This document shows positions 56,273 through 62,305 of a DNA stretch of 64,000 nt, piece by piece. Source of the DNA: Alteraurantiacibacter aquimixticola (GTDB lineage: Bacteria > Pseudomonadota > Alphaproteobacteria > Sphingomonadales > Sphingomonadaceae); assembly GCF_004965515.1 (NCBI RefSeq), contig NZ_SSHH01000001.1, positions 809,280-873,279 on the forward strand, in the 5' to 3' direction. A model generated the notes under the pieces. It did not search any database and was not told the origin of the DNA. It saw only the letters and a program-made list of their open reading frames with translations. Within the stretch, counting starts at the first letter, position 1, and each line of letters opens with the position of its first letter. The translations under genes and the position numbers were made by a program.

Positions 56273-58096
56273 ATGTGCGGAATTATCGGTATCGTCGGCA
56301 AGGAAGCGGTCGCAGCGCGCCTGGTCGATAGCCTCAAGCGCATGGAATATCGCGGTTATGACAGTGCCGGGATCTGCGTGATCGAGGATGGTGAGCTGGT
56401 CCGCCGCCGTGCCGAGGGCAAGCTCTCCAACCTCGTGGCGGAACTGGCGTCCAATCCGGCGGACGGGATGGTCGGCATCGCCCACACGCGCTGGGCCACC
56501 CATGGCGCGCCCACCACGCAGAACGCCCATCCGCATGCGACAGACAAGGTCGCGGTCGTGCATAACGGCATTATCGAGAACTTCGCTCCGCTTCGGGCCG
56601 AGCTGCAGGCGCGTGGCCGCGTGTTCCAGAGCCAGACCGATACCGAGGTCGTTGCGCATCTCGTCTCCGAACTTATCGAGGCGGGCAAGTCGCCGGAGGA
56701 AGCCGTGGGCGAGGTACTGCCGCAGCTGCGCGGGGCCTTCGCGCTCGCCATCGCCTTCCGCGATCATCCCGGCCTGCTGGTCGGCGCGCGCCTCGGCTCG
56801 CCGCTGGTGGTCGGTATCGGCGAGGGCGAGACCTATCTCGGCTCGGATGCGCTGGCGCTCGCCGCGCTCACCCAGAAGATCGCCTATCTCGACGAGGGCG
56901 ACTGGGTGGTGATCGACAAGGACGGACCGCGAATCTTCGACCGCGATAACAACCCGGTTACCCGCGAGGTCACGACATCGGGCGCGAGCGCGGCGATGGT
57001 GGAGAAGGGCAATTTCCACCACTTCATGCAGAAGGAGATCTTCGAGCAGCCGACCGTGGTGGCGCAGACATTGCGCAGCTATCTCCGCCCGCTGGAACGC
57101 AAGGTGGCCCTGCCGCAGATCGATTTCGACATTTCCGCCGTCGACCGCATCACCATCGTTGCCTGCGGCACCAGCTATTATGCCGCGATGGTCGCGAAAT
57201 ACTGGTTCGAAAGCTTTGCCCGCGTACCGGTGGACATCGATTTCGCCAGCGAGTTCCGATACCGCGAACCGATCCTGACCAAGGGCGGGCTGGCGCTGTT
57301 CATCTCGCAGAGCGGGGAGACGGCAGACACGCTGGCGGCGCTGCGCCACTGCAAGGCGGAAGGCCAGACCATCGCCGTGGTCGTCAACGTGCCCACCAGC
57401 ACCATGGCGCGCGAGGCGGACCTGCTGCTGCCCACGCATGCCGGGCCGGAGATCGGCGTCGCCTCCACCAAGGCCTTCACTTGCCAGCTCGCGGTTCTCG
57501 CCGCGTTGGCCGCTCATTTCGCGGTGAAGAAAGGGCGGATGAGCGCTGAGGAAGAGGCGCAGATCGTCGATCACCTGCTCGAAGCGCCCGCCGCTCTCAA
57601 CGCCGCGCTCGACCATGATGAGGATATCAAGGCGATGGCCCCGCTGGTCGCGCCTGCGCGTGACGTGCTCTACCTGGGGCGCGGACCGGACTTCCCGCTG
57701 GCGCTGGAAGGCGCACTGAAGCTCAAGGAAATCAGCTACATTCACGCAGAGGGCTATGCCTCGGGCGAAATGAAGCACGGCCCCATCGCGCTGATCGACG
57801 AGCACGTGCCGGTGATCGTGCTGGCGCCGAGTGGCCCGCTGTTTGAAAAGACCGTCTCCAACATGCAGGAAGTCGCCGCGCGCGGCGGGCGCATCGTGCT
57901 GATCTCCGACGCTGAAGGGCTGGCGGAAGCAGGCGAGGGCTGCATGGCCACGATCGAGATGCCCAAGGTCCACCCGCTGATTGCACCGCTGGTTTATGCC
58001 GTGCCGGTGCAACTGCTCGCCTATCACGTCGCCTGCGTCAAAGGCACCGATGTCGACCAGCCGCGCAACCTCGCGAAATCGGTGACCGTCGAATAG
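56273..58096 (+). CDS. glmS: Glucosamine--fructose-6-phosphate aminotransferase
   Basis: The 607-residue protein begins MCGIIGIVG, with Cys 2 as the glutaminase nucleophile, and has an N-terminal glutaminase domain (ARVTHRWAT-type segment: HTRWATHGAPT) and two SIS domains (ACGTSYYAA, ISQSGETADTLAAL). It makes glucosamine-6-phosphate. The 5' leader (56145-56272) carries a hairpin CATGCC-GCTT-GGCATG (56178-56193) and GCCGCCGG-A-CCGGCGGC (56233-56249), but no glmS-ribozyme core was recognised. Confidence 0.97.
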   Translation: MCGIIGIVGKEAVAARLVDSLKRMEYRGYDSAGICVIEDGELVRRRAEGKLSNLVAELASNPADGMVGIAHTRWATHGAPTTQNAHPHATDKVAVVHNGIIENFAPLRAELQARGRVFQSQTDTEVVAHLVSELIEAGKSPEEAVGEVLPQLRGAFALAIAFRDHPGLLVGARLGSPLVVGIGEGETYLGSDALALAALTQKIAYLDEGDWVVIDKDGPRIFDRDNNPVTREVTTSGASAAMVEKGNFHHFMQKEIFEQPTVVAQTLRSYLRPLERKVALPQIDFDISAVDRITIVACGTSYYAAMVAKYWFESFARVPVDIDFASEFRYREPILTKGGLALFISQSGETADTLAALRHCKAEGQTIAVVVNVPTSTMAREADLLLPTHAGPEIGVASTKAFTCQLAVLAALAAHFAVKKGRMSAEEEAQIVDHLLEAPAALNAALDHDEDIKAMAPLVAPARDVLYLGRGPDFPLALEGALKLKEISYIHAEGYASGEMKHGPIALIDEHVPVIVLAPSGPLFEKTVSNMQEVAARGGRIVLISDAEGLAEAGEGCMATIEMPKVHPLIAPLVYAVPVQLLAYHVACVKGTDVDQPRNLAKSVTVE

Positions 58097-58391
58097 GGCG
58101 CAGTCTGCGATTTACAGTGTAGGAAGACAAAAGAGTTTTTCCATTTACAAAAAAGAAGTTCCGTTTTCGCTTTGGTTACAAAAAAGAAATTCCAAAAATT
58201 TTTTGCGTGTATGCCGCGGAAATCCTAGGATTTCTTGGGGTTTTGGCGATTTTGGCCCGGCGAAAATCATGCTTACCTAAAGGTTAAATTCTTCTCATTT
58301 GAGCTCATATTGTCGGTGATCCCGATGCTGTTCAGCTGAGCCAGCAGGATCCACGGCGTGGGGGCTACCGGCTTGCCTTGGCGGAACCGGG
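58097..58391. other. AT-richer intergenic gap between glmS and the nif edge
   Basis: This 295-bp gap is richer in A and T than its surroundings. It holds two 18-bp direct repeats of TTACAAAAAAGAARTTCC (58145-58162 and 58176-58193) and a perfect 16-bp palindrome GAAATCCTAGGATTTC (58219-58234). No gene, promoter or RNA was identified. Confidence 0.7.
58145..58193. repeat. Two 18-bp direct repeats
   Basis: TTACAAAAAAGAAGTTCC (58145-58162) and TTACAAAAAAGAAATTCC (58176-58193) differ at one base and start 31 bases apart. They could be protein-binding sites or remnants of an insertion or deletion at the cluster boundary. Confidence 0.75.
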
Positions 58392-58871
58392 TCAGGTCGT
58401 CGCCGGGCTGCCGGCTCCGTTCTTGCGGGCTGAAATCCAGCGCTGGAGTTCCGCGACGTGGCCCTGTTCTTCTTCGACGAATTCCGTGGCCAGCGCGATG
58501 ATCTCGGGATCCTCGGTCTTGGCGAGGACCCCGGAGTAGTAGTCGAGACCCGCCATTTCGGCATCGAGTGCCGCAAGCAGGGCCTCCTCGGCGGAGATCA
58601 GCGGATCGGCCGTCCAGATCGCCGCGGCTTCGGGACTCTCGCTGTCGGGCCAGTTGAAGTCCTCGGGGGCCTTCTTTGGCACATCGCGAAATCCCGCACG
58701 TTCCTGGGCATCGGCAAGATGCATGCGCGAATAGTCGGCCAGCCGACGAAACAGCTTGCTGACTTCGACATTACCGCCGGTCTCCATCGCATCGGCGAGT
58801 TGTCCGAAACGGTCGGCCGCCTCGCGTTCGAGCTGGATCGCATGGGCTAGGAATTCTTCGACGTTTTCCAT
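58392..58871 (-). CDS. Ferritin-like protein (rubrerythrin-type four-helix), nif-linked
   Basis: The 159-residue protein is a four-helix ferritin-like domain with Glu in helix 1 (IQLEREAADRF), His in helix 2 (YSRMHL), Glu in helix 3 and ExxH in helix 4 (EEEQGHVAEL). The helix-2 ExxH is replaced by SxxH. It is clearly a paralogue of the C-terminal half of the upstream gene product. ATG 58871 follows AGGAAAGGA, 13 bp after that gene. It is in the NifA-dependent minus-strand unit, so it probably protects or feeds iron to nitrogenase, but this is inference. Confidence 0.82.
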   Translation of the reverse strand: MENVEEFLAHAIQLEREAADRFGQLADAMETGGNVEVSKLFRRLADYSRMHLADAQERAGFRDVPKKAPEDFNWPDSESPEAAAIWTADPLISAEEALLAALDAEMAGLDYYSGVLAKTEDPEIIALATEFVEEEQGHVAELQRWISARKNGAGSPATT

Positions 58872-58884
58872 CCGCGTCCTTTCC

Positions 58885-59796
58885 TCAGGCATCAACGGTC
58901 GGGTTGCTTTGAATCCATTCCTCGCGCGTGACCGAGGCTTCGAGGATTTTCAGGTGCTCCGCTTCCTCCTGCACGAACAGCTTGGCCATGGCCTTGACCT
59001 CCGGCTCGTGGGTGGTTTCGGCAATGGCGAGGTAGAAGTCATAGCCGCGCCTTTCGCCGATCAGCGCAGCCTTCAGCGCATCGATCTTCGACAGTGCGGC
59101 ATCGCCTGCCATCAGCGATGTCTGTTCGGGCGTCGCCTGATCGGGCCAGACGTAATCGGGCGGCACGACGACATCGGCCTTGATCTCCTTCGCCCGTTCC
59201 TGCGCTTCCTTGAGGTGCTGGCGGGAAAAGCCGGCCAGCTGGTAGAAAAGCTTGGCGACTTCGTCATTGCCGCAAGCCTTCATCTGTTCGGCAAGGTCGT
59301 AGAAATGCGTCGCCGCATCTTCCTCGATCTTGACCGCATAGCCAAGGAACTCGTCGAGCGAATTGACCTTGATGCCGCCTGTGAAATGTCGGGCCGCATG
59401 AGTGATGTGCGGGCGCTGGGCAGGCAGCGTTTCGTCGCCCTCGAAGGTCACCATGATATCCTCGTTGCGGACGAAGCACTGGCAGGCGAGGCGGTAGCGT
59501 GGCGGCATGTCGTTCACCTCGGCCTCGTAAATCTCATCCTTGGTGATCTTGCCGAGCTGCTTGAGCGTTTCCTTTTCCTCCTCGGTCAGGGCGATGCCGT
59601 ATTTGCTGTATTTGGTCGGCGCATCGAGATGCGTGACCTCGACGACGCAGGATCCGCAATTGCCGTCCTGACAATCGAACGGGATAGGGACCTTGTTCTG
59701 CTGGGCGACGGCAAGGATCGTCCCGCGATCGCCCGCAACGGCATAGACCGTGATGTCGCGCGCCATGCGGGGCGAGGAAAAGGTTACATTCGCCAT
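58885..59796 (-). CDS. 2Fe-2S ferredoxin fused to a ferritin-like domain, nif-linked
   Basis: The 303-residue protein has an N-terminal plant-type 2Fe-2S ferredoxin: Cys 42, 47 and 50 (CQDGNCGSC) and Cys 105 or 107 (RLACQCF). Residues about 145-300 form a four-helix ferritin-like domain with IEEDAATHF, FSRQHL and EEAEHLKIL, again with Ser for the usual helix-2 Glu. The fusion suggests that electron transfer is coupled to iron or oxygen handling. It is expressed from the sigma-54 promoter at 59852-59866. Similar fusions occur in nif clusters as I recall, but no biochemical role is known to me. Confidence 0.87.
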   Translation of the reverse strand: MANVTFSSPRMARDITVYAVAGDRGTILAVAQQNKVPIPFDCQDGNCGSCVVEVTHLDAPTKYSKYGIALTEEEKETLKQLGKITKDEIYEAEVNDMPPRYRLACQCFVRNEDIMVTFEGDETLPAQRPHITHAARHFTGGIKVNSLDEFLGYAVKIEEDAATHFYDLAEQMKACGNDEVAKLFYQLAGFSRQHLKEAQERAKEIKADVVVPPDYVWPDQATPEQTSLMAGDAALSKIDALKAALIGERRGYDFYLAIAETTHEPEVKAMAKLFVQEEAEHLKILEASVTREEWIQSNPTVDA

Positions 59797-59851: not shown

Positions 59852-59866
59852 GCAATCCCCGTGCCA
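59852..59866 (-). promoter_or_regulatory. Sigma-54 promoter for the ferredoxin-ferritin unit
   Basis: On the minus strand the element reads TGGCACG-GGGA-TTGC, a very close match to the -24/-12 consensus, with exactly ten bases between GG and GC. It lies 56-70 bases before ATG 59796. The nearest NifA sites are 113-150 bp upstream, the usual distance. Confidence 0.9.
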
Positions 59867-59978: not shown

Positions 59979-60015
59979 TGTCGCAGCGCCGACAAGGAAT
60001 GTCGGGGGCGCGACA
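59979..60015. promoter_or_regulatory. Two tandem NifA upstream activator sites
   Basis: TGT-N10-ACA occurs at 59979-59994 (TGTCGCAGCGCCGACA) and 60000-60015 (TGTCGGGGGCGCGACA). Their centres are 21 bp apart, two helical turns, so dimers would sit on the same face. They lie between the divergent sigma-54 promoters and can serve both. Confidence 0.88.
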
Positions 60016-60142: not shown

Positions 60143-60337
60143 ATGGCTTACAAGATCATCGCATCGCAATGCACGGGCTGCAGCGCCTGTGAATTCGAAT
60201 GCCCCAATGCCGCGATCTCTATGAAGGGGGAGACCTTCATCATCGATCCCAACAAGTGCACCGAATGCGAAGGGTCCTATGACCACCCGCAATGCGACAC
60301 GGTGTGCCCGGTCCCGCAAACCTGCGTGCCAGCTTGA
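60143..60337 (+). CDS. fdxN: 2[4Fe-4S] ferredoxin, FdxN type
   Basis: The 64-residue protein has Cys at 10, 13, 16, 20 and at 39, 42, 51, 55 (CxxCxxCxxxC and CxxCx8CxxxC), the bacterial-type nif ferredoxin pattern with the longer insert in the second cluster, plus Cys 61. FdxN supplies low-potential electrons for nitrogenase or its cofactor assembly (NifB). AGGAG precedes ATG 60143. First gene of the plus-strand NifA unit. Confidence 0.93.
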
Positions 60338-61245
60338 GCATCGGCAGCCTCGCCCCGCCTGCCGTGATTGCAGAGGACGATTTCGGCCCCGACGATTTTG
60401 GGCAGGCGATCGACTGGAAGGGCAGCCCGGTGAAATGCCGGGAATGCGACCACCAGGCGATCAACGCCATGGGCTTGTGCGCCAAGGGCAAGGCCTGCAT
60501 CCGTGACCGTCGTGCCCGCCGTGTGGAACGCTTCCTGCAGGAAAATCCCGGCCTGGCCGACCAGTATCTCGACCACCCCTATTTCGAAGTACGGGCAGGG
60601 GCTGCTCGCCATGCCAACCTGTTCCTGCTGCCGCCGCTGCTGAAGGATCCGGAAGCCGAAGTCAGGGCCATGGCCACGCTGCGGCTGCCAGAGGAGAAGA
60701 TCAGGAAAATGATCGAAGACGAGGATGTCGATGTTAGGATCGCCGCCGCTTCCCGCCTGCAGGGACGCGACCTGCTACCTGCCATGGGGGACAACGAATA
60801 CATGGTGCGGATCACCGCCGTTCGGCGGATGCCGCCCGAATTGCTCCCGCTGGTGCGTCACGATCCCGATGCGGAAGTGCGCGCATGGGTCGCCCGGCGG
60901 ATCGACAAGCCGGCATTGCCCGATATGGGCTTCGATCCCGATCCATCGGTCCGCCGCATTGTCGCCGAGCGCCTGCCGCTCCCCCAATTGGCCATGCTGA
61001 TCGCCGACAGCGACGCAGGCGTGCGCCTGATCGTTGCCGAACGCATCGCTGAAGAGGAACTGGAGCCGCTGCTCGACGATCCGGAGGAGCCGATCCGCGA
61101 TATCGCGCGCCAGCGGATCGGCCAGGTCGAGAGCCTGCATTACCTGCTCGAACCCGGCAGGCGCGTGGTCGCTTTCCCGGCGCCCGACGCCGATGCCGAA
61201 GCGCCCTCGCGATCCCCCAATCCCGACGAGGAGACCAACCCGTGA
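60334..61245 (+). CDS. 4Fe-4S-binding leucine-rich-variant (LRV) repeat protein
   Basis: The 303-residue protein has four Cys near the N-terminus (35, 38, 49, 55: [14 protein letters not shown]) that fit a 4Fe-4S cluster, followed by LRV repeats of about 24 residues ([58 protein letters not shown] and others). This matches the LRV protein first described in the Azotobacter vinelandii nif region. Function is unknown. The start is taken at TTG 60334 sharing TTGA with fdxN; an ATG at 60292 is an alternative with a long overlap. Confidence 0.9.
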
Positions 61246-61454
61246 AGATCATGTTGCGCAGGGCCGAAGGCGTCCTGTCCGCCTATGTCCCCAAGAAGGA
61301 CCTCGAGGAACCGGTCGCCGAACAGGAGCATGAAGGCCTGTGGGGCGGGTGGATAAGGCTGGCCAATGGCTGGGTCCTCGACCTGCCGGACATGGCTGAG
61401 GACACTTCGCTGCCGATCACGGTCAATGCGCGCAAGCGCAGCGAGGTGGAGTGA
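61242..61454 (+). CDS. nifT: NifT/FixU family protein
   Basis: The 70-residue protein begins [21 protein letters not shown] and continues with GGWIRLANGWVLDLPDM, the NifT (FixU) pattern. NifT occurs in nif clusters but deletion often has little effect and its role is unclear. The start is GTG 61242, coupled to the LRV gene by GTGA. Confidence 0.93.
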   Translation: MKIMLRRAEGVLSAYVPKKDLEEPVAEQEHEGLWGGWIRLANGWVLDLPDMAEDTSLPITVNARKRSEVE

Positions 61455-61459
61455 TCGCG

Positions 61460-62305
61460 ATGACTGCCGCCATACTCGACAATCCGGCCGAGGTCCTAGC
61501 CGATCTGGCCACGAGATTGCGCGCGGGCGAGGTCGTTCCCTACCTCGGTCCGGGCATTTCGGAACTGGCGGAGACGCCGACGCCGATGACCACCGCTGCC
61601 TTGGCCGATTTTCTCGGCAGCAAGGTGCGGCTCCCGGCGCGCGCGATCGGCAATGTCTGGGCGGCGGCGCAATATATCGAGAGTTACCGCCACCGGCAGA
61701 CGGTGACCGCGCTGATGCAGGAGGCCTTCGCAACGCCGGTTGAGCCATCGCCGCTGCATCGCTGGCTGGCCGAACTGGCGCCGCCGCTGGTGGTCGACAG
61801 CTGGTATGCCGGGGAAATGCGCCGCGCCCTTTCCGGCCGTGAGGGCTGGGTCGAGGTGCAGGGCACGCATCGCGCGGTGATCACCGATCCTGCCTGGTAC
61901 CGCTTCTACATGCCCGACGGTACGGAGTGTGAAGAGGCGGAGGCTGAAGGAACGGACACCTTGCTCTATACGCCGCATGGCAGCATCGCGCCCGCGGGCA
62001 ATTTCCTCATTTCCGATGCGGACTATGTCGAAGTCCTGACCGAGATCGATATCCAGACGCCGATCCCGGAAGAGGTCCGCCGCCGCCGCACCGGCAAAAG
62101 CTTCCTGTTCCTGGGCTGCCATTTCGACGACCAGCTGCTGCGCACTTATGCGCGCCAGGTGATGAAGCGTTCGGGCGGCGCGCACTACGCCGTGGTCGAG
62201 GTCGACGGGCTGACGCGCAACGAGTGCCGCTTCTTGGAGGAGCAGGAGATTACCGCCATCGACATGCCTCTCGACCGGGCGATCGCCATGCTGCTGGACG
62301 GCTAG
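61460..62305 (+). CDS. SIR2-like protein in the nif operon
   Basis: The 281-residue product has an N-terminal SIR2-like Rossmann opening (RLRAGEVVPYLGPGIS) and a C-terminal region with KSFLFLGCHFDDQLLRTYARQV and HYAVVEVDGLTRNE, as in the SIR2_2 family. Classic deacetylase zinc Cys pairs are not obvious. ATG 61460 has GGAG eight bases upstream; GTG 61451, sharing GTGA with nifT, is an alternative and adds three residues. Placement in a NifA operon suggests a nitrogenase-related role, not defence. Confidence 0.82.
   Translation: MTAAILDNPAEVLADLATRLRAGEVVPYLGPGISELAETPTPMTTAALADFLGSKVRLPARAIGNVWAAAQYIESYRHRQTVTALMQEAFATPVEPSPLHRWLAELAPPLVVDSWYAGEMRRALSGREGWVEVQGTHRAVITDPAWYRFYMPDGTECEEAEAEGTDTLLYTPHGSIAPAGNFLISDADYVEVLTEIDIQTPIPEEVRRRRTGKSFLFLGCHFDDQLLRTYARQVMKRSGGAHYAVVEVDGLTRNECRFLEEQEITAIDMPLDRAIAMLLDG

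Follow-up and report, generated by a model that had tools for sequence, protein, structure and literature searches.

The genome of Alteraurantiacibacter aquimixticola carries, at the edge of a compact nif region, a gene pair for a predicted FeSII-ferritin fusion protein and a ferritin-like partner, to which we give an even chance of being a nif-linked accessory that would protect nitrogenase from O2 or peroxide. The pair was analyzed within a window, the whole stretch of 64,000 nucleotides, to which the positions below refer. The fusion (303 aa; 58885-59796, minus strand) was defined from the list of open reading frames (ORFs), Pfam, phmmer and an AlphaFold2 model, and comprises an FeSII-like domain (residues ~1-124; 59425-59796, minus strand; phmmer and Foldseek) and a ferritin-like domain of the COG1633/rubrerythrin type (residues ~145-303; 58888-59364, minus strand; phmmer and model). 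Its tandem ferritin-like paralogue (159 aa; 58392-58871), recognized by phmmer, model and alignment, lies 13 nt downstream on the same minus strand; its start was placed at the ATG at 58871, inside a longer ORF (58392-58895) of 167 aa that begins with TTG. Pfam matched Fer2 (E 1.9e-10) and Rubrerythrin (E 4.9e-10) in the fusion, and Rubrerythrin (E 3.3e-8) without Fer2 in the paralogue. The latter aligned to residues 143-289 of the fusion with 39% identity (E 5.7e-30), in agreement with the tandem ferritin-like duplication proposed in a preliminary description of this DNA. The four helices that had been read from both sequences were also present in both AlphaFold2 models as four long helices (helix pLDDT mostly 78-92); neither model lacked the bundle, and neither had a separate fifth C-terminal helix.

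By sequence and model comparison, the N-terminal [2Fe-2S] domain of the fusion belongs with FeSII (Shethna protein II) in one family. In a phmmer search of PDB sequences, residues 1-121 matched residues 1-118 of the Azotobacter FeSII chain 5ffi (E 7.5e-36), and the top Foldseek match of the fusion model was the FeSII chain 9cu1_N from a filamentous nitrogenase complex ( E 4.8e-12, TMt 0.88, 51% identity). The model, built from 41 sequences (pLDDT 77, pTM 0.52), leaves the interdomain arrangement unfixed at this pTM. A plain plant-type ferredoxin was rejected, as the domain scored 127.4 bits to FeSII versus 22.6 bits to 1frd; the match to a heterocyst plant-type ferredoxin in the PDB sequences reached only E 6.5e-4. 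The fused 2Fe-2S ferredoxin of the preliminary description was retained as a Fer2 domain, while its assignment to the generic plant type was replaced by the FeSII type. In the 81 fusions compared (that of the window and those of 80 loci described below), the cluster ligands Cys42, Cys47, Cys50 and Cys105 were present without exception, and 63 columns were conserved in at least 95% of the sequences, 41 of these being identical in Azotobacter FeSII. The lid segment LT-[ED]-x-E of FeSII is kept in the fusion. The positions of K14 and K15 of Azotobacter FeSII are occupied by V/I/L/M and T in 81/81 fusions; three solo FeSII-like proteins, included for comparison, have V and T there. H55 is kept in 71/81 fusions and in 0/3 of the solo proteins.

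In the available excerpts of two reports, Azotobacter FeSII is described as a conformational protection protein that is activated by oxidation and forms an oxygen-protected, inactive complex with the MoFe and Fe proteins (PMC12585515, PMC11301756); its midpoint potential is given as -262 mV (PMC11301756). Excerpts of another paper report K14 and K15 to be crucial for the interaction with nitrogenase and mention mechanisms similar to FeSII protection for Clostridium pasteurianum and Klebsiella pneumoniae (PMC3045800), and a further paper, as far as its excerpt goes, merely cites FeSII (PMC13327599). The preliminary description had offered iron supply or oxygen/peroxide protection as alternative roles; because the ferredoxin belongs to the FeSII family, a membership missed at that stage, the choice shifts toward protection.

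For both ferritin-like domains, the best PDB match by phmmer was 2oh3, a COG1633 protein of Magnetospirillum magnetotacticum (E 7.2e-15 for the fusion domain, E 3.1e-23 for the paralogue), and ferritins were far behind 2oh3/COG1633 among both sequence and fold matches. The diiron site of the rubrerythrin/ferritin-like fold has six ligands, in the order E, ExxH, E, ExxH, and this pattern is visible in the alignment of the Glu-type relatives of the domain. Aligned with these relatives, the fusion has E158, S191, H194, E248, E278 and H281 at the ligand positions and the paralogue has E15, S48, H51, E105, E135 and H138; that is, five of the six ligands are present and the helix-2 Glu is Ser. The substitution noted earlier in both proteins was located at S191-R-Q-H194 and S48-R-M-H51. 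Helix-2 Ser occurs in 79/81 fusions and in all 49 partners (that of the window and 48 from the loci), and the five other ligands are all kept in 78/81 fusions and 49/49 partners. By these alignments, Ser at helix 2 is a family trait of fusions and partners; this ligand conservation led us to reject a decayed metal site for the family taken together. The fusions L085, L098 and L116 lack some of the site ligands, and each adjoins a partner with all five, which hints at a pair of active and inactive subunits, although the pattern is not significant alone (48/80 fusions have a partner). No rubredoxin-type FeS4 domain was found, the Pfam matches at E up to 10 being Fer2, Rubrerythrin, Ferritin_2 and DUF2383 only. 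The rubrerythrins of PMC5748707 and PMC6515984 were not taken as members of the Ser-type family, since the excerpts of these papers do not establish their membership.

A scan of named genomes yielded 195 relatives, of which the best 80 were kept and 115 were not, so that the 80 loci considered here are the best-scoring ones. All 80 carry the fusion, each covering at least residues 4-287 of 303 (two are cut by a contig end), and they come from alpha- and betaproteobacteria, including Novosphingobium, Zavarzinia, Methylocystis, Bradyrhizobium, Rhodopseudomonas, Rhodopila, Rhodoblastus, Rhodomicrobium, Azospirillum, Skermanella, Derxia and Methyloversatilis. Methylocapsa palsarum has two fusions on different contigs (L060 and L062), and the Rhodopseudomonas palustris genomes L082, L091 and L093 have both the fusion and the partner. 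A nifH match over the cut-off was present in 71/79 genomes of the best 80 of 195 relatives (41/49 and 30/30); among the genomes examined, the fusion was not common where nif genes are missing, an outcome that would have spoken against the preliminary description. Among the eight fusion genomes without nifH, nifD was over the cut-off in three (G690, G692, G698), appeared as two pieces under the cut-off in G691, and in G686 gave a weaker nifD-family match only; the nifD search returned no match in G681, G688 and G694, all metagenome bins, while the positive controls G687 and G699 were matched. Among the 385 genomes of the class sample, 4 have the full fusion and 11 have nifH, and all 4 belong to the latter group. 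In the order sample of 296 genomes, the full fusion was found in the window genome only and was absent from the six listed genomes of the same genus, which suggests that members of this group seldom have this nif region or that it was acquired. A plasmid search gave one FeSII-only match and no fusion.

In the class, order and phylum samples, nifH accompanies the Ser-type ferritin-like relatives and only rarely the Glu-type ones. Typing of the 26 relatives with loci in the class and order samples (several further class-sample matches, which had no locus, were left out) gave 24 Glu-type proteins from 24 genomes and 2 Ser-type proteins; stretches taken by place contained four more copies of the Ser type, two of them in G337 and one each in G345 and G639. 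When fusions are counted, nifH (TIGR01287 over its cut-off) is present in 8/8 Ser-type genomes of these two samples (G000, G462, G336, G639, G345, G337, G329, G406) versus 1/24 Glu-type genomes (G441). A search of the phylum sample (398 genomes) with a ferritin-like alignment, at an E limit of 1e-10, contributed five more genomes: the two of the Ser type, G913 and G970, have nifH, whereas the three of the Glu type lack it. Over the class, order and phylum samples, nifH thus accompanies 10/10 Ser-type versus 1/27 Glu-type genomes, the former count being confined to these samples, as Ser-type copies are also present in the 8 genomes of the scan that gave no match to nifH. The corresponding Fisher values (3.7e-7, 8.6e-7 and 3.2e-8) overstate the strength of the association, because related genomes are not independent. 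Most nifH genomes of the phylum sample lack the family, which was found in 5/37 of those over the cut-off; in the class sample it was found in 8/11. In G970, which lies outside the class of the window genome, the Ser-type ferritin-like gene (L165) is located between fixX and nifA; it has one TGA within the search match, yet its frame is open over 151 residues. The preliminary description of the pair as a duplicated nif-linked accessory with an atypical site is supported by the ligand pattern and by this distribution, at the level of sequence comparison.

In the window, nif-region genes lie divergently to the fusion gene on the plus strand (60143-62305), encoding a 4Fe-4S ferredoxin, an LRV_FeS protein, nifT and a SIR2-like protein, after which a nifB-like ORF follows. 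The nifH gene is located at position 878652 (G000:C1), 5.4 kb beyond the window end, and is over the profile cut-off; further ORFs, read by sight, are presumably nifB, nifZ, nifHDK, nifEN, nifU, nifS, nifV, nifW, fixABCX and nifA, and among the nif ORFs read in this way nifH is the one confirmed over the cut-off. The SIR2_2-like gene (61451-62305, plus strand; Pfam E 7.8e-17) lies directly after nifT, and in other nif regions (L040, L071-L074, L109, L111, L117 and L153) its relatives are next to nifT or at most a few kb away. On the other side of the pair, an A+T-rich stretch (58100-58290) that contains TTACAAAAAAGAA(G/A)TTCC twice separates the partner gene from a convergent ORF (56273-58096), which by sight resembles glmS. 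Maintenance of the fusion by physical linkage to nif genes was mostly rejected, as clear nif/fix genes are nearby in about 18/80 loci, a count over flanks of different length from which single nifA-, nifV-, nifS-, cysE- or fixX-like matches were excluded. In G337, both halves of the fusion are separate genes within one nif region, with the order nifE, K, D, H, solo FeSII, SIR2-like, nifT, nifZ, nifB, nifA, solo ferritin-like, fixXCBA, nifW.

The fusion is apparently under the same control as the nif genes, from a candidate NifA/sigma-54 type promoter. Sigma-54 promoters have conserved -24/-12 elements, and the consensus of the NifA upstream activator site (UAS) is TGT-N10-ACA. An exact match to the -24/-12 type sequence TGGCAC-N5-TTGC (59852-59866, minus strand) starts 70 nt upstream of the fusion ATG, and two exact TGTCG-N6-CGACA sites of the UAS type (59979-59994 and 60000-60015) are located in the interval that separates the fusion gene from the divergent gene for the ferredoxin. 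The 64-kb window contains three exact TGTCG-N6-CGACA and two exact TGGCAC-N5-TTGC sites. With at most one mismatch, there are 10 promoter-type sites versus 5.8 expected (4/100 shuffles reach 10) and 5 UAS-type sites versus 2.65 expected (13/100 shuffles reach 5); these window counts alone are weak, and the promoter claim is therefore carried by the positions of the sites and by the upstream regions of relatives. In position-limited counts, a -24/-12 type site, one mismatch being allowed, precedes 29/79 fusions versus 9/2661 random pieces, and TGT-N10-ACA precedes 31/79 versus 73/2661; both site types, with up to two mismatches in the -24/-12 site, precede 30/79 fusions versus 3/2661 random pieces. 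The random pieces were cut from the same loci and include coding as well as intergenic DNA, and one locus with less than 450 nt upstream (L041) was left out of the promoter counts. Among the 30 upstream regions with both sites, 13 are from Rhodopseudomonas, and in that of L054 the two site types are wrongly ordered; 26/79 upstream regions lack a sigma-54 type site even when two mismatches are allowed. Of the NifA control suggested earlier, the NifA-type promoter is supported by the exact sites in the window and by those of the relatives. Since most fusion loci have no nif genes in the flank, common control is evidence separate from linkage. The position-limited counts replaced looser ones (sigma-54 30/79, UAS 40/79), and nine UAS matches were dropped: one at 90 nt upstream of the start, and eight at 31-39 nt in loci of the Methylocystis type. 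The latter (L049-L053, L055, L056 and L058) have a near-perfect palindrome, e.g., TGTCTGAGTTCAGACA, at 31-39 nt before the fusion start, which is perhaps an operator for another regulator.

The relationship between the two ferritin-like domains was assessed in a tree of 65 rows, which comprised 28 of the 80 fetched fusions and that of the window, 17 of the 48 fetched partners and that of the window, 7 other Ser-type domains and 11 of the 24 Glu-type domains. The fused domains (100/99), the partners (98/92) and both together (98/85) are set apart by supported branches, and, with a midpoint root used for drawing only, the other Ser-type domains fall outside the group of fusions and partners and the Glu-type domains further out. 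A local, recent duplication was rejected, as the fused domains and the partners each lie on one side of a supported branch. According to this tree, the duplication is old and common to a wide clade, and one fusion event plus one old duplication would be enough to explain the topology. Among the 80 loci, the partner is directly downstream of the fusion in 42, divergently upstream in 5 and about 5 kb away in 1, and no partner was seen in the flank of the other 32, several of which have flanks that end early.

Rubrerythrin offers a precedent for the proposed activity: its ferritin-like iron site reduces O2 or H2O2 and is fed by an iron-sulphur domain of the same chain, and rubredoxin serves rubrerythrin with electrons. 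By analogy, the ferritin-like site of the fusion would bind iron and reduce O2 or H2O2 (or both), with electrons arriving via the fused [2Fe-2S] cluster. The FeSII-like domain would bring this activity to nitrogenase, or would let the ferritin-like domain or the fusion sense oxidation, and the fusion and its tandem partner would form a hetero-oligomer; as a net effect, O2 or peroxide would be kept from the Fe protein and the MoFe protein as oxygen rises. The absence of K14 and K15 is the strongest point against a simple equivalence with FeSII, and for this reason the protective role is held at an even chance and rival explanations are kept. A more specific version, enzyme-linked conformational protection, in which an O2/H2O2 reductase of the ferritin-like type, with an iron site one carboxylate short, would be brought to nitrogenase by the FeSII-like domain and act as a hetero-oligomer with the partner, and the Ser-type clade would be a diazotroph-specific enzyme family not yet described as such, is put forward tentatively, as rather unlikely in its full form.

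The same ferritin-like fold, nif-type promoter and [2Fe-2S] domain could also serve to handle iron for the assembly of cofactors, with the [2Fe-2S] domain reducing ferric iron of the ferritin-like pair so that Fe2+ is released for the nitrogenase clusters. Bfd provides a precedent for such release from bacterioferritin, and nif induction creates a large iron demand. However, 2oh3/COG1633 is the best match by fold and sequence, with ferritins far behind, the models have no fifth C-terminal helix beyond the four long ones, and the [2Fe-2S] domain is of the FeSII type, which we take not to be Bfd-type; we consider this role unlikely. A mainly structural role, in which the ferritin-like domains dimerize or cluster FeSII domains for avidity toward nitrogenase and the altered site is catalytically silent, would accord with the replacement of one ligand in nearly all members and with the ligand losses in 3/81 fusions, whose adjacent partners all keep the five ligands, but the retention of the five other ligands in nearly all fusions and every partner is unexpected for a silent site, and such a scaffold seems improbable. 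The ferredoxin fold and the NifA-type promoter would also suit an electron carrier to nitrogenase with the ferritin-like domain as a docking module. Against such a carrier stand the protector function of Azotobacter FeSII, whose midpoint of -262 mV is high for a nitrogenase donor, and the 4Fe-4S ferredoxin and fixABCX-like genes in the same region, and we regard it as very improbable.

Compared with known systems, the protein of the window resembles Azotobacter FeSII (5ffi, 9cu1) in the extent of identity, the four cluster cysteines and the lid, but differs in being fused to a ferritin-like domain and in having neither K14 nor K15. With rubrerythrin, the fusion shares the Pfam Rubrerythrin match and the joining of an iron-sulphur with a ferritin-like domain in a single chain, whereas it has an N-terminal FeSII-type [2Fe-2S] domain in place of the rubredoxin domain and Ser in place of the helix-2 Glu. 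The structure 2oh3 has the same four-helix domain with the same helix-2 Ser, but it is a 167-residue chain without a ferredoxin domain, is uncharacterized according to its title, and, with part of its sequence used, falls outside the fusion and partner clades of the tree. FdxD of Rhodobacter capsulatus ("Shetna ferredoxin"), likened here by description and not by sequence, is, in the excerpt of the report available, a NifA-dependent ferredoxin encoded upstream of nifHDK and credited with oxygen protection (PMC6925177). Among the papers listed from the open-licence literature, judged by title and the start of the abstract, none was seen to deal with a fusion of FeSII and ferritin-like domains or with a Ser-type ferritin-like family linked to nif. 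The widespread fusion with its putative NifA-type promoter, present among others in Rhodopseudomonas, Methylocystis, Bradyrhizobium, Azospirillum, Skermanella and Derxia, offers concrete genes for genetic study. The helix-2 Ser, in turn, is an easily read mark, in the sequence itself, of a ferritin-like family linked to nif, of which one structure, 2oh3, has already been deposited.
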